From: Clostridia bacterium
GTDB taxonomy: Bacteria > Bacillota > Limnochordia > DTU080 > RSA5
Length of the DNA stretch: 38,725 nucleotides
Assembly (NCBI GenBank): GCA_002919235.1
Contig: PKEX01000027.1
Coordinates: forward strand, 1 to 38,725
Direction of reading: 5' to 3'
Positions 511-38,725 of the stretch are shown piece by piece (position 1 is the stretch's first letter; every line of letters begins with the position of its first letter). The notes beneath the pieces were generated by a model, which had not been told where the DNA came from, searched no databases, and was given only the letters and a program-made list of their open reading frames with translations. Made by a program: the position numbers and the translations under genes.

Positions 511-1308
511 TCACAAGATGGGCGTTTCCACCTCGACCCACTCGCCCTGCCCGTGGCGCCTCACCGTCACCGTGACGTTCACCGCCTGTCCCCCGATCGC
601 GGTCCGTCCGGGAAGCTTTGGGGTCCATCCCGCCGCGACGTAGCGGTCGCCCGCCAGCTCCTGGTAGCGCACGGCCGCGCCCAGCTCCCCTAGGAGGCCG
701 GCGGCCAGCTGCTCCCTGGGCTCGTCCCCGGCGGGCCTGCCCTGAAAGACCGCTTTCCCTTCCAACGGCGACGACGGGCCCGCCGCCCGCAGCACTGCCT
801 GCTCCGTCCACCGCACGAGCCGCGCCAATCCTTCGGGCAGGCCGTAGAAGCGCCGCCGGACGGACGCCTCGACGCGCCCTGAGTCGCCGGTCCCCGGGAT
901 ATAGCGGGCCGAGGCGACCCACCGGCCGCCCTCCGGTTCGGCGCCTTCCACGTAGACGGCGGCGTAGCCGCTTCCCGCGTCCGACCAGAGGCTCCGCTCC
1001 CCTGCCGGCATGCGGGCGGCCAGCTGCTCGGCGATGGCCTTCAGTTCCGAGAACGTGGGGGGCGGGCCCTCGCGCAGGCGGGCGGTGACCAGGATGTCGC
1101 TCTCGACCACCGAGATGCCCCGCGCCTTCAGGGCGACGCTCAGCGGATCCACCAGGAAGCGCCCCTCCTTGAAGAGGCCCGCCTGGTGCTGGAGCAGCGC
1201 CGCGGCCGCGGTCAGCACCGCAGCGGCCAGCGCCGCCCGGCCCACGAGGCGCAAGAATGACGGCGCGGCCCGGCCCGGGGCCGGCGCGTTCGCCCCCGTG
1301 CTCTCCAT
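511..1308 (-). CDS. ywmB: YwmB-family protein (TATA-box-binding-like fold), exported
   Basis: The protein has about 265 residues. An N-terminal hydrophobic segment (FLRLVGRAALAAAVLTAAAA, about residues 17-36) acts as signal or anchor. The rest is a mixed alpha/beta domain with the alternating pattern of the YwmB family, named for its fold resemblance to TATA-binding protein and found in spore formers; its function is unknown. The position after atpC and before a membrane-anchored gene is the same as in Bacillus and supports the call. An upstream ATG at 1323 is possible, but GGGAGG lies about 7 bases before the ATG at 1308, so the shorter form is preferred. It lies beyond the terminator following atpC, so it needs read-through or its own promoter, and no convincing promoter was seen. 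Confidence 0.75.
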   Translation of the reverse strand: MESTGANAPAPGRAAPSFLRLVGRAALAAAVLTAAAALLQHQAGLFKEGRFLVDPLSVALKARGISVVESDILVTARLREGPPPTFSELKAIAEQLAARMPAGERSLWSDAGSGYAAVYVEGAEPEGGRWVASARYIPGTGDSGRVEASVRRRFYGLPEGLARLVRWTEQAVLRAAGPSSPLEGKAVFQGRPAGDEPREQLAAGLLGELGAAVRYQELAGDRYVAAGWTPKLPGRTAIGGQAVNVTVTVRRHGQGEWVEVETPIL

Positions 1309-1395
1309 GCCACCGCCTCCCATTCCTTGGCTTCGCTTCCATGATTCCCAACCGGCTGCAGCCCTATGCGCCGCCGCTCCGGGCCCGCCGGGGAC

Positions 1396-12190: not shown

Positions 12191-12194
<4 letters not shown>

Positions 12195-12700
12195 GACTCC
12201 GATTCGCCTCGCTTTGCCTCTTCTGCGCCGGCCAACTGCTCCTTGAGCCGGCCGGCCAGCGCCTCCACGGCGCGGCCGATCTCTTCCAGCGCCGAGCGGT
12301 ATGCCTCATCCCCTTGCATGAAGGGATCGGCGATGTCGGACGGGCCGTCGAGCCGCGCGTACTCCTTCAGCGTGTACACTTTGGCGGCGGCTTCGGGGTA
12401 GGCCAAGAGAATCCTGGACTTGTGACTCTCCGTCATGGTGAGAATGAGGTCGTACTCCAGATGATCTACGCCAAAGCGGCGGGTCTGGTGCTCCTCCAGC
12501 CCGATGCCCCGGGATTTCAGCGCCCGGACCGCCCCTTCCGCCGCCGGCTCGCCTTCCCGCGCGTCGAGCCCGGCAGAGCCCACCTCCACGCCCAACGACC
12601 GCAGGTCAGGATCCCGGAGGATCCGGTCTTTCAGAAGGGCCTCGGCCATGGGGCTCCGGCAGGTGTTGCCGCTGCAGACGAAAAGGACGCGAAAGGCCAA
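12191..12700 (-). CDS. ywlE: Low-molecular-weight protein phosphatase, probably protein-arginine phosphatase
   Basis: The protein has about 169 residues. The P-loop near the N-terminus reads CSGNTCRSPMAEAL. The Thr before the second Cys is the residue that gives B. subtilis YwlE its phospho-arginine preference, whereas tyrosine phosphatases have Ile there (established for YwlE). The general-acid aspartate is in DIADPF near the C-terminus. GGAGGA lies 8 bases before a TTG at 12700; a GTG at 12706 is too close to that site. The rpiB neighbour matches B. subtilis. An arginine kinase (McsB) would be expected elsewhere in the genome. Confidence 0.9.
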
Positions 12701-12794
12701 TGGCACACTCCTCCAGCCGCTGGTAGTCTCCTGCCTTCCCGCGCGACCCGCACCGCCATTCAGACTTCCACAGTAGTTTTCCCATCCCTGCCCT

Positions 12795-34383: not shown

Positions 34384-35442
34384 GTGCGTTTTTCGATTGA
34401 CGACACGAAACTCCTTTGGCTGGCCCTCATCGTCGCGGCGGTCTGGTTTCGCCAGCCCCTGGCCGCCACGCTGCTCCCGTTCATCCTGGCTCTCGCCCTC
34501 GCCAGCCTGCTCGAGCCGGTGGTCGGATTTCTCCAAGGGCGCGCCCGCATGCCCCGGGCCGTCGCGGCCATCGTCAGCCTGGCCCTGGCCGTCATCGCCG
34601 GCGGCTACGTGCTGCTGATGATCTTCACCAAAGTCATCTCCGAGCTGGTGCAGATGGGCTCGCTGCTCCAGCGCTACCAGCGGGTGCCGGTGGAATTCGC
34701 CCGGTGGGTCATCGAGCGCCTCAACGAGCTGAACGAGCTTTTCGCCCAGCAAGGGCTGCCCCCGGCGGTGCAGCAGAACATCATCCAGACGGTGGAAAAC
34801 CTGGCCAACGCGGCCGTCAGCCTGGCGACCCAGGCCATCAACGTGGCCGTCAACGCCATGTCGCAGGTGCCGTACCTGGTGGTGGTCCTGGTCGTCTCGC
34901 TGATCGCCACCTACTTCCTGGTCAAAGACCGCGACCGCTTGGTCGAGTCCGCCATCTCCCTTTCGCCCCCGGCCATGCGCGACCGGCTGCGGAACGCCTG
35001 GGCCCGCATCATCGCCGACATCGTGGGCTTCTTCAAGGCCACGCTGATCCTGGTGAGCATCACCACGGTCATGGTGGCCCTGGGGCTCATCATCATCGGG
35101 ATCGACTACTGGATGACCCTGGCCATCATCGCCGGCGTCCTCGACCTCATTCCGGTCCTGGGGCCCGGCTTCCTCTTCGTGCCGTGGGCCATCGGCGCAG
35201 TCACCCTGGGCCACGTGGGCCTGGCCCTGCAGCTCCTCGGCCTGTACGCCGCCACCTTCTTGGTCCGCCAGCTTTTCCAGGCCAAGATCCTGGGCGACTC
35301 CATCGGGGTCCATCCCCTTTGGATGCTGGCGGCCCTTTACGGCGGCATCCAGTTCTTCGGCCTCTACGGCTTCATCGTCGCACCGGTGCTGATCATCATC
35401 GCCAAGGCTGCCTACGAAGTCTCGGCTAGCCTGCGCGCATGA
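34384..35442 (+). CDS. AI-2E/YtvI family membrane protein
   Basis: The protein has 352 residues with about eight hydrophobic segments and a central hydrophilic region (about 85-160, amphipathic helices). The C-terminal part has LDLIPVLGPGFLFVPWAI and the family motif region GVHPLWMLAALYGG. The family includes AI-2 exporters and the sporulation protein YtvI of B. subtilis; which applies is not decided by sequence, but a spore former makes YtvI reasonable. GTG start with GAGGTG upstream. Its last 17 bases overlap the 3' end of the convergent TamB-like gene. Confidence 0.87.
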   Translation: MRFSIDDTKLLWLALIVAAVWFRQPLAATLLPFILALALASLLEPVVGFLQGRARMPRAVAAIVSLALAVIAGGYVLLMIFTKVISELVQMGSLLQRYQRVPVEFARWVIERLNELNELFAQQGLPPAVQQNIIQTVENLANAAVSLATQAINVAVNAMSQVPYLVVVLVVSLIATYFLVKDRDRLVESAISLSPPAMRDRLRNAWARIIADIVGFFKATLILVSITTVMVALGLIIIGIDYWMTLAIIAGVLDLIPVLGPGFLFVPWAIGAVTLGHVGLALQLLGLYAATFLVRQLFQAKILGDSIGVHPLWMLAALYGGIQFFGLYGFIVAPVLIIIAKAAYEVSASLRA

Positions 35443-37606
35443 GCGACAGCAGGGCGCTCCGGCTCAGCTTCAACCGGCCGCCTTCGATCCCGAACTGGAG
35501 CCGGATGGGCTCGCCGACGCCCAGGTCGTCCCCGAGCGCCAGGTCGAAGGTGGCGTCCGGCCGGTGCGCATCGCCGTACACCTTCAGCTGGCCGTCGACG
35601 GTCCCGTCGATCAAGAGCGCCGGCCAGGTGAGGCCGCCCTCCCGCAAGAGCCCGGAGAAGGAGGCCTCTTCCACCCGGATGTCCAGGTCCAGCCGGGGGC
35701 TTTCGGTCCGCCAGCCGGTCACCGTGCCGTTCAACGTGTACCTTCCCCCGCCCACGCTGGTGACGGAGACGCCGTTCAGTTCCAGGATCTCCGGGGTCAG
35801 CACCGCCGCCCCCACGGGGGCTGCGGCCGGCAGCCGGCCCAGCGCCAGCTGGCCGCCGAGAAACTGGCCCGAAAGCCTCGGCTCGTCCTGCGTGCCCTCG
35901 AGCCTTCCGGCATAGCTCACCCAGCCCGAGACGCCCGACGCCAAGGAGGCCAAGGGGCCGCTGCCCGCCTCCACCGGCCACCGGTCCAGCGCCACCGAGA
36001 GGTCCAGCCGGTCCGCCCGGAGGACGCCGTCCAGCGCGGCGGTGCCCTCGCCCAGCTCCGCCCGGACCCCTGCCAGGGCCAGCGCGCCGTCCTGCCACGA
36101 AAACCGGCCTTCCGCCCGGTCGAAGTAGCGCACCCCGCCGATGCGAACGCCCCGCACCGCCGCGTCGCCCTCCAGGCGCACCGCCCCGGCGGGCCCGTCC
36201 AGGTGTAGCCTGCCGTCGACTTCTCCCACGGCGTCCACGTCGAGGGAGAACGCTTTCAGCAGCTCGCTGAGGCTGCCCCGGGCGGCCCTGAGTTCGATGG
36301 CCAGATGGTACGGCGTGCGGTCCCAGCGGACCTCGCCGTCCAGGACGTACCTGGCCGTCCCCTGCTCCAGCACGGCCTCATCGAAACGGAACCCTTCCCG
36401 GCTCAGCGCGATGCTCCCTTGCCCCCGCGCGACCGGCCGGTGCCACACCGTCCCGTTCTCGAGGGAGAGCGTCCCCGAGAGCACCAGGCTGTCCAGAGAC
36501 CCCGAAACGGTTCCCGAGAACCGGCCCCTGCCGCTCAAGCCGAACCGCTGGACCACGGGCAGATCCCGCGGCAGGTCGAGCCCTTCGGCGCTCACCGCCA
36601 GCTGAGCCTCCCAACTGCCGCCGGGGCCCGGGGCCATCTCCCCGCCTGCGCGCACCGCCGCGGCGCCCCGCTGGAGCGCGAGCGACGTGATGCGCCACAC
36701 CCGCCCGTCGCTCTCGGCTTCCAGCACCAGGCGTTCAAACGCCGCTTGGTCGTCGCTTCGCTCGCCCCAAGCCAGGGTCCCGTCCCTCACCTCTGCCTCG
36801 ATCCGGGCGCCCCGCAGCGCCGGACTCGCGGCGCTCCCCGAAACTTCCAGCTCGCCCCGGGCGACCAGCGACCCGGTGACCTGCCAGGCGTCCAGGCCCA
36901 CCAGCGGCAAGAGGAATTCCGCCGGTCCCTTCGCTTCAAATTCGTAGGCCGAAGCCCGGCCGCCGCTCCGGCGCAAGGTGAGCTCGACGGTGCCTCCCAC
37001 CTGCCGGAGCCGCAGCTCCTCGCCGGCGATGCTCCAGCCGTCGCCGGCCAGCTCCGCCCTGCCGTCCACTCGCCAGGCCCGCACGGTGCTGCCGCCCGGC
37101 GCCGCCTCCTCGACGGTGCCGTCGACCACCTCGACCCGCAGGGACCGTCCGGACCCGCCGGTCTGCTCGGGGCGGGAGGTCCCTGCCTCCCCGCGGCCGG
37201 CCGCCGCCCCCGCCGGGAGCGCCGCGAGGGCCAGGCGCCACGTCCCCTCCTCGACCACCAGGCGCGGGCGGACCAGCCGGACGGCGTGGACGGCCCCTTC
37301 GGTCCTGCCGGTCAAGACCTTCCAGGGGTCCACGGCGACGTCCACCGCCGGCAGGCGGATTTCGGCGCCGGCGCCCGGCGGACGGGCGGTCACCTCGGTC
37401 AGGCGAAGGTGCGACAGGCCGGAGAAGTGAGCGCCGCGCACGTCGATCCGCCAGCCGCTCTGCTCCTCGATGGCCCGGGCTACCCCCCGCGCGAGGCCCA
37501 GCGGGGCGCCGGTCAGGTTGAGGCCCGCCGCCAGCACCGCGAGGGCCAGCACCCCTCCGGCCAGCCAGAGCGCGGCCTTGCGCCAATTCTTCCGGAATGT
37601 TCGCAT
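35426..37606 (-). CDS. TamB/AsmA-like repeat protein, membrane-anchored
   Basis: The protein has about 726 residues. One N-terminal membrane helix (ALWLAGGVLALAVLAAGL, about residues 10-27) is followed by GWRIDVRGAHFSGLSHLRLT, an AsmA/TamB-like start. More than 600 residues of repeating beta strands with patterns such as LDGEVRW, GEVDGRLHLDGPAG and GTVDGQLKVYGDAHRPDA follow. These are typical of TamB/AsmA-type proteins, which form lipid-carrying beta grooves between two membranes in diderm bacteria. It ends without the conserved C-terminal DUF490 region I would expect of full TamB (usually over 1000 residues), so it is a short relative or is truncated. GGTGAG lies 7 bases before the ATG at 37606; a GTG four codons earlier is also possible. 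Confidence 0.75.
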   Translation of the reverse strand: MRTFRKNWRKAALWLAGGVLALAVLAAGLNLTGAPLGLARGVARAIEEQSGWRIDVRGAHFSGLSHLRLTEVTARPPGAGAEIRLPAVDVAVDPWKVLTGRTEGAVHAVRLVRPRLVVEEGTWRLALAALPAGAAAGRGEAGTSRPEQTGGSGRSLRVEVVDGTVEEAAPGGSTVRAWRVDGRAELAGDGWSIAGEELRLRQVGGTVELTLRRSGGRASAYEFEAKGPAEFLLPLVGLDAWQVTGSLVARGELEVSGSAASPALRGARIEAEVRDGTLAWGERSDDQAAFERLVLEAESDGRVWRITSLALQRGAAAVRAGGEMAPGPGGSWEAQLAVSAEGLDLPRDLPVVQRFGLSGRGRFSGTVSGSLDSLVLSGTLSLENGTVWHRPVARGQGSIALSREGFRFDEAVLEQGTARYVLDGEVRWDRTPYHLAIELRAARGSLSELLKAFSLDVDAVGEVDGRLHLDGPAGAVRLEGDAAVRGVRIGGVRYFDRAEGRFSWQDGALALAGVRAELGEGTAALDGVLRADRLDLSVALDRWPVEAGSGPLASLASGVSGWVSYAGRLEGTQDEPRLSGQFLGGQLALGRLPAAAPVGAAVLTPEILELNGVSVTSVGGGRYTLNGTVTGWRTESPRLDLDIRVEEASFSGLLREGGLTWPALLIDGTVDGQLKVYGDAHRPDATFDLALGDDLGVGEPIRLQFGIEGGRLKLSRSALLSLMRAG

Positions 37607-37799
37607 CGTCTCGCTCACCGCCGCAGCACGCTCCCCCGCAGCATCGTGGGTTCCTGGTCGCTTCCTGACCCCTCCTTTGGCGTCGTCCGGCCCCGGCCCT
37701 TCAGGGAATACCGGGCGCTTCCGGAAATCGCGCGACGCACTGGAACCTGCAGGAATCGGGCGGATCCGGCCTGAACTTCTGCCTTTAGGAACCGGTCAT

Positions 37800-37811
37800 C
37801 GATGCGCATCG
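37800..37811. promoter_or_regulatory. 12-base perfect palindrome upstream of the secreted-protein gene
   Basis: CGATGCGCATCG lies directly before the GGAGG ribosome site of the right-edge gene, in the 218-base gap to the divergent TamB-like gene. It has no loop, so a protein operator is more plausible than a hairpin. I found no convincing -35/-10 pair in this gap. Confidence 0.3.
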
Positions 37812-37824
37812 GAGGTCTGTCACC

Positions 37825-38725
37825 GTGAAAGCGACGACACGGCCCTGGCTTTGGCTGGCGCTGGCGTGCGCCGGCATGCTCCTGTGGGCGCAGGCCGCCT
37901 TGGCCCAGCCTGCTTATCACTTTCAGATCGAGGGGTACCGGCTGCAGGCGCTCACCTACCATTGGACGACCACGGGCACCCTGGAGGTCTCCACCGACGG
38001 CGCCACCACGGCGGCGGCTTCCTTTGAGATCTCGTCGCCGCTCACCCTCGCGTTTGATGAGGAGACGCCTTCGGGCGAGCTCCCCTTCGAGATCACGTTC
38101 AGCTCGCTGAGGGTGCGGGGCGTCCAATGGCTTGACAGGGCGGCCCAGGAGCCCGTCACGGTCCGCGGCCGCCTCGACTCCCGGGGCGCGCTGATCGACG
38201 TGGAGACGCCGGCCATCCTCTCCGAGCTGGGCCTCAACATGGCAGACCTCATGATCGGCCTCGTGGTCCCGGGGCCGGAGCAGGGCCGGAGGGCCGCCCC
38301 CGGCGTCGAATGGCAGAGCCTGTTCCCCCGGAGCGAGTCCAGCCGGGCCGCCCGCCGTCCCGACCTGCGGGCGACGTACTCCATCGGCCTCGAGGCTGAC
38401 TGGGGAACCCGCGTCCTGCAAACCGTCACCGCCCGGATCCGGGGAAGCGCCACCGTCCGGGAAGGCGGGCTGCGCACCGACGTGCAGGAAATCGGGCACG
38501 GGCTCTTTTACCTGCAGCCTGCCACCGGCATTCCCGAGCTCTCTTCGGTCAGCATCGTCACGGAGATCGAAACGGGGCCGTCCGTCGCGCGCACGGTGAC
38601 CAGCAGGACCAAGATCTCGTCCACCACCACACTCTCGCTGCAAGACGTCCGCCCGCGCGCCCCGGCCGCAGGGCGCCCGGCAGAGCCGCCGGCCCAGAGC
38701 CCGCCCGCGCCCACCGAGCCGGAGG
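37825..38725 (+). CDS. Secreted protein of unknown function (runs off the right edge)
   Basis: It starts at a GTG with GGAGG 9 bases upstream and is open for 300 codons to the window end. The first 28 residues are a clear signal peptide: a basic start, the core WLWLALACAGMLLWAQ and a likely cleavage after AALA. The mature part is beta-rich with Thr-rich strands (YRLQALTYHWTTTGTLEVST) and repeats the phrase 'effect on a strand, turn, strand' without known motifs. The visible end becomes Pro/Ala-rich. I do not recognise a family. It is divergent from the TamB-like gene, so an envelope role is possible (inference). Confidence 0.72.
   Translation, partial: MKATTRPWLWLALACAGMLLWAQAALAQPAYHFQIEGYRLQALTYHWTTTGTLEVSTDGATTAAASFEISSPLTLAFDEETPSGELPFEITFSSLRVRGVQWLDRAAQEPVTVRGRLDSRGALIDVETPAILSELGLNMADLMIGLVVPGPEQGRRAAPGVEWQSLFPRSESSRAARRPDLRATYSIGLEADWGTRVLQTVTARIRGSATVREGGLRTDVQEIGHGLFYLQPATGIPELSSVSIVTEIETGPSVARTVTSRTKISSTTTLSLQDVRPRAPAAGRPAEPPAQSPPAPTEPE

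Follow-up and report, generated by a model that had tools for sequence, protein, structure and literature searches.

A short TamB-like protein of the AsmA clan in diderm Limnochordia, and its persistence in families in which no TamB was detected

What can a TamB-like protein do for an outer membrane when it stops short of the domain with which TamB meets its partner there? The C-terminal domain of E. coli TamB is described as entering the TamA barrel (PMC12800296), and a gene in a genome of the class Limnochordia (GCA_002919235.1) encodes a TamB-like protein in which we find no such domain. The window, i.e. the whole stretch of DNA analysed, is 38,725 nucleotides long and is the entire contig C17 (PKEX01000027.1) of a 2.24-Mb, 47-contig assembly. 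A preliminary description made from the letters alone had placed the protein in the TamB/AsmA class and the genome in one of the diderm Bacillota lineages. Diderm Bacillota with TamB are already well known, as is this kind of protein; in the openly licensed literature on Limnochordia, Limnochorda and Negativicutes with TamB or AsmA, we found no report of a short orthologous family, nor of the short protein surviving where TamB is gone. Genomes, contigs, regions and families are referred to below by our own G, C, L and f numbers where they need to be told apart.

The reading frame opens with an ATG at 37606, with a further in-frame GTG at 37618, and closes with a stop codon at 35428-35426; the length of about 726 residues and the stop inside the convergent ytvI gene (17 bases within 34384-35442), both read earlier from the letters, hold (Table 1). 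The corresponding overlap measures 26 bases in G001, and there is none in G003. A scan of 35300-37950 for promoters and terminators found none. The predicted N-terminal membrane helix, preceded by basic residues, has a counterpart at residues 3-50 of a low-confidence AlphaFold2 model. TamB (PF04357) is the only Pfam family on the protein, narrowly over its cut-off (23.9 bits against 22.4, E 2.9e-5), and its best stretch spans just profile positions 14-74 of 381, in agreement with the earlier remark that the C-terminal TamB (DUF490) region is absent. The profile search proposed at that time for both AsmA and TamB/DUF490 was thus borne out for TamB, and not for AsmA (PF05170), which did not exceed its cut-off. 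The only NCBIfam match, to GspN_Lepto (Leptospira), covers residues 34-108 at E 3.5e-5 and scores 23.4 bits where the cut-off is 50. Over residues 50-726 the beta hydrophobic moment reaches a z of 6.2 relative to shuffled sequences, the alternation of hydrophobic residues that a groove should show; by the same measure the genome's own TamB gives 7.4, and four cytosolic proteins of the window give -0.0, -0.7, -2.5 and -0.4. Judged by its sequence, the protein is an intact member of the AsmA clan, with a membrane helix, an N-terminal domain and amphipathic beta repeats, and without a TamB/DUF490 domain.

Table 1. Features of the short TamB-like gene and its two flanking genes, in window coordinates.
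Feature	Position	Strand	Basis or remark
ytvI, convergent neighbour	34384..35442	plus	TIGR02872, 250.9 bits; 17-base overlap with end of the short coding sequence
Short AsmA-clan/TamB-repeat coding sequence	35426..37606	minus	726 aa, stop included
Beta-repeat (beta-taco) region, about residues 155-715	35462..37144	minus	strand pattern of models; beta hydrophobic moment
Best stretch of Pfam TamB match, residues 421-487	36146..36346	minus	Pfam search
AsmA/TamB-type N-terminal (chorein-like) domain, about residues 36-120	37247..37501	minus	GspN_Lepto match and TamB profile-profile alignment
Single N-terminal transmembrane helix, about residues 11-33, basic residues ahead	37508..37576	minus	sequence
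Divergent gene, interrupted by contig end	37825..38724	plus	no Pfam or NCBIfam family

Between the short protein and the TamB of the same genome, BLASTP similarity is barely detectable (E 0.003). Profile-profile comparison (HH) with five TamBs of the class gave a probability of 98.7%, confirming the proposed class, and aligned model columns 44-718 to TamB columns 47-796 of 1166; this part of TamB precedes the C-terminal domain, leaving residues 686-1001 of the genome's own TamB without a counterpart in the short protein. Among 21 aligned orthologues, matches at E<=0.01 were to TamB in 13, DUF748 in 4, YhdP in 3 and T2SSN in 1, families that, with AsmA, we take to form one AsmA-like clan. The short protein thus shares with canonical TamB the N-terminal membrane helix, the AsmA/TamB N-terminal domain and the beta repeats, and differs in lacking the TamB/DUF490 domain, in not adjoining bamA and in its length (726 aa, against 1011-1308 aa in the five class TamBs read). 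E. coli AsmA, YicH, YhjG and YdbH are likewise anchored in the inner membrane and free of the TamB C-terminal domain (PMC8593681), but the repeats of the short protein score as TamB rather than AsmA (PF05170). By description only, it can also be likened to the second AsmA-like protein of Veillonella parvula, likewise found beside TamB in a diderm member of the Bacillota; Grasekamp et al. describe one such other asmA-like protein, with its role given as unknown (PMC10665443).

Structure prediction added little to this comparison. The full AlphaFold2 model of the short protein was poor (mean pLDDT 50.6) and a segment model better (65.0). Foldseek with the weak full model returned no match at E<=0.001; neither the Vps13 N-terminal fragment in its second row (probability 0.93, E 6.3e-3) nor the TamAB chain ranked 24th (probability 0.57) is strong enough to rely on. 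The segment model matched ApoB, OspA, porins and ushers, with no TamB among the best 50 rows, and because its matches are of the ApoB, OspA and porin kind, structure does not establish the groove. A search of PDB sequences with the profile gave the TamB chain 23sp (E 0.026) and one unrelated row; with the single short-protein sequence it gave nothing useful.

The orthologue in G001, a genome of another genus in the same family, shows 47% identity along 717 residues (E 2.8e-196), which rules out a chance open reading frame, and its end coincides with that of the short protein to within a few amino acids. A frameshift or truncation, considered as a source of the short form, was discarded on these ends: the 3'-end alignment with relatives suggested in the preliminary description revealed an equally short frame and no frameshift. 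Across a class sample of 72 genomes in 16 families, a 21-member profile, A1, found matches with a best piece above 250 bits in 28 genomes; the start codon of each row was set manually, and seven of the 28 homologous genomes (G002, G014, G031, G033, G039, G042 and G045) were omitted from it as fragments or near-copies. All 28 have the short form, spread over eight of the 16 families (f1, f2, f3, f8, f9, f10, f11 and f12), with the C-terminus even shorter in members of f8 and f11. Matches of A1 in G009, G023, G037, G038 and G051 fall solely on TamB genes. The 28 genomes are free of internal stops except for one TGA within the match span of G021, where the short-protein frame is 613 aa long and ends normally. 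A second self-match in the studied genome (C23:17240, E 3.7e-4) lies within the frame of an ABC transporter gene, presumably of the MsbA type, and was taken as spurious.

On its gene content, the genome is that of a diderm with LPS. The search for outer-membrane genes, whose complete absence would have spoken against a diderm lineage, found BamA (TIGR03303, 269 bits, slightly short of the cut-off), LpxC, LpxD, an LpxB-like protein, LptC and an LptA/LptD-like protein, and an outer membrane has been seen by electron microscopy in two Limnochordia isolates (PMC11456536). The lineage proposed earlier is therefore sustained, although the three accompanying genes read from the window fared unequally: CodY was confirmed; the candidate frame for YwmB (511-1323, minus strand, our placement) has no Pfam or NCBIfam match; and that for YwlE (12191-12706) resembles low-molecular-weight tyrosine phosphatases under the curated cut-offs, a resemblance compatible with the name. 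A canonical TamB, distinct from the short protein, is encoded on contig C31 directly upstream of bamA; it has 1011 aa, with phenylalanine as its final residue, and matches PF04357 over positions 10-372 of 381 (E 4e-35; domain at residues 686-1001). Because this full TamB adjoins bamA separately, the short protein is a paralogue and not the genome's TamB. The gene arrangement agrees with the tamB-bamA-skp order known from Negativicutes and Halanaerobiales (PMC5007114). A gene for a SpoIVB-like S55 peptidase (PF05580) lies immediately upstream of tamB-bamA (L074:5125-7800, minus strand; same slot elsewhere), and it remains in the outer-membrane cluster where tamB has been lost. One TamB match, in G038 (C45:22812-23810), carries a TAG stop, possibly marking a pseudogene or an assembly error.

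Within the class, LpxC was found in 31 of the 72 genomes and TamB, by Pfam, in 21, one of which (G021) is the short protein itself; a class TamB profile, A4, gave 22: it picked up G046 and, over 50 columns, G062, but missed G021. No genome of the 72 exceeded the cut-off for AsmA (PF05170) or for YhdP (PF13116), the latter giving weak matches in six, among them one in G012 (E 1e-3) that is located in the short protein. The 11 genomes of families f3, f9, f10 and f12 all carry both the short protein and LpxC, and none has TamB by either profile or YhdP or AsmA over the cut-off, so that no AsmA-clan protein other than the short one was detected there. Family f6 is the reverse case, with TamB and LpxC but lacking the short protein. 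Family f6 is probably the Geochordaceae and f12 the family that holds Limnochorda; the single-contig genomes of the class belong to these two (G008 and G025 in f6, G019 in f12). The tamB slot, between the S55 peptidase gene and bamA, was looked at in six of the 11 TamB-less genomes. The distance between the S55 and bamA matches is 295 bases in G003, 4 in G012, 135 in G022 and 31 in G019, and the two overlap in G034 and G016, against 3.1 to 4.3 kb in four TamB-bearing genomes; the slot is closed in all six, and the loss of TamB there is therefore not just a matter of missed detection. G007 (f5, L103) has LpxC and BamA but gave no match for TamB or for the short protein, and its slot is likewise closed (53 bases).

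LpxC accompanies the short protein in 26 of 28 genomes, against 5 of the 44 without it (Fisher p 2e-12), and the two LpxC-less genomes with the short protein (G033 and G039, 82% and 90% complete) belong to f8, the rest of which has LpxC. Conversely, 26 of the 31 LpxC genomes carry the short protein, so not all do. We discarded the Fisher value as evidence of a link to LPS: a tree of 41 BamA proteins accounts for LpxC with only 2 changes and offers too few independent pairs to test; the short protein takes 4 changes on it and TamB 8. In that tree the states of the short protein and LpxC were set by family and those of TamB by genome, and it excludes 31 of the 72 genomes, with G054 dropped as a fragment and G033 and G039 absent. 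With roughly two losses on the BamA tree behind it, a link between the short protein and LPS is only suggestive. LpxC is absent from 41 of the 72 genomes, and BamA turned up in 58 of 60 genomes tested for it; families f4, f7, f13, f14, f15 and f16 give the impression of bacteria that have an outer membrane but no LPS.

The gene neighbourhood was compared over 19 regions (18 loci and the window), in which guaB is a neighbour in 10, ytvI in 8, and DUF1015, a DsbD_TM protein and an Rce1-like protein in 7 each. None of these five occurs in the f10 regions, but f10 and f12 have a gene pair in common, and ytvI is present in f12; the most fitting reading of this chain of overlapping neighbourhoods is a single short gene, orthologous throughout and passed on by vertical inheritance. 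A lipobox scan of up to 2.5 kb from the short gene found no conserved small lipoprotein in the 19 regions, its sole lipoprotein (262-266 aa) occurring in two of them. In f8 such a lipoprotein gene is convergent to the short gene (L088, 9597-10460, and L089, 9697-10485, both minus strand), and the L088 product matches the spore-cortex-lytic SleB by NCBIfam (E 2e-26, under the curated cut-off). The divergent gene that the contig end interrupts in the window has an orthologue in G001 (L076, 3687-6611, minus strand) encoding a predicted secreted protein of 974 aa that matches no Pfam or NCBIfam family. Relatives of this gene adjoin the short gene in G001 and G003, lie one gene farther away in G005 and, among the regions read, occur in families f1, f2 and f3 only; we regard the secreted protein as a candidate outer partner and nothing beyond that.

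We lean towards the view that this intact short paralogue of TamB serves as an inner-membrane-anchored groove for lipid transfer that needs a separate partner on the outer side. The N-terminal helix would anchor the protein in the inner membrane and expose a hydrophobic groove to the periplasm; along the groove, phospholipid or some other lipid would leave the inner membrane, and this cargo would be handed to a separate outer partner, or the bridge completed by one, as YnbE does for YdbH. E. coli TamB is 1259 residues long. It is portrayed as a rod of 16 nm (PMC6791001), and residue scaling from these figures gives the short protein a reach of about 9 nm; an outer partner is likely because there is no Omp85-docking domain, the protein has about half the length of E. 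coli TamB and its reach is so limited. The preliminary description implied a bridge between both membranes, which for a protein of this length is no more than a possibility. Completion of YdbH by the lipoprotein YnbE (PMC12977461) and lipid transport by other members of the AsmA clan (PMC8593681, PMC10665443, PMC12977461) offer precedents.

The retention of the short protein in all 11 TamB-less LPS genomes, which would otherwise be left without an AsmA-clan bridge, makes it rather unlikely in our judgement that it acts at the inner membrane and periplasm only, like E. coli AsmA, YicH and YhjG, even though its length is near that of the short E. coli members, it lacks a docking domain and no partner was found in the 19 regions. 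This is the most serious of the alternatives: AsmA is described as working apart from TamB and YhdP, and deletions of yicH and yhjG as having no permeability phenotype of their own (PMC8593681). That the short protein instead carries lipidated proteins or aids secretion, like the beta-taco protein GspN, we consider improbable. GspN is AsmA-like and moves lipoproteins (PMC12802150), and its model gave the only NCBIfam match, but that match is weak, under the curated cut-off and limited to the N-terminal domain shared across the clan, and no type II secretion genes were noticed adjoining the short gene in the regions read. A truncated or decaying copy of tamB, to which the missing C-terminal domain might point, is extremely improbable given the same short end in a 47%-identical relative, frames free of internal stops in all 28 genomes (bar the TGA of G021, where the frame ends normally) and an intact TamB encoded separately.

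A broader scenario can be offered tentatively, as a possibility that we hold to be somewhat doubtful: in several LPS-diderm families, including the putative Limnochorda family, tamB would have been lost from the bamA cluster, leaving the short protein as the sole AsmA-clan lipid carrier, and phospholipid would reach the outer membrane by way of a short, docking-less groove and an outer partner. The way in which phospholipid gets to the outer membrane is a matter of ongoing work, and E. coli has redundancy in its main system (YhdP, TamB and YdbH). Families with TamB only, with both proteins or with the short protein only form a natural comparison for lipid transport to the outer membrane, in which two of the three sides probably include cultivated species with closed genomes, and those with the short protein only provide a test case for lipid supply to that membrane.

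Beyond the class, strong A1 matches among 398 genomes drawn from the phylum were to long TamB-like frames, mostly of 1400-2700 aa. Four genomes of other classes (G174, G202, G225 and G184) gave weak A1 matches, three of them in frames of 743-841 aa that may encode further short AsmA-like proteins.
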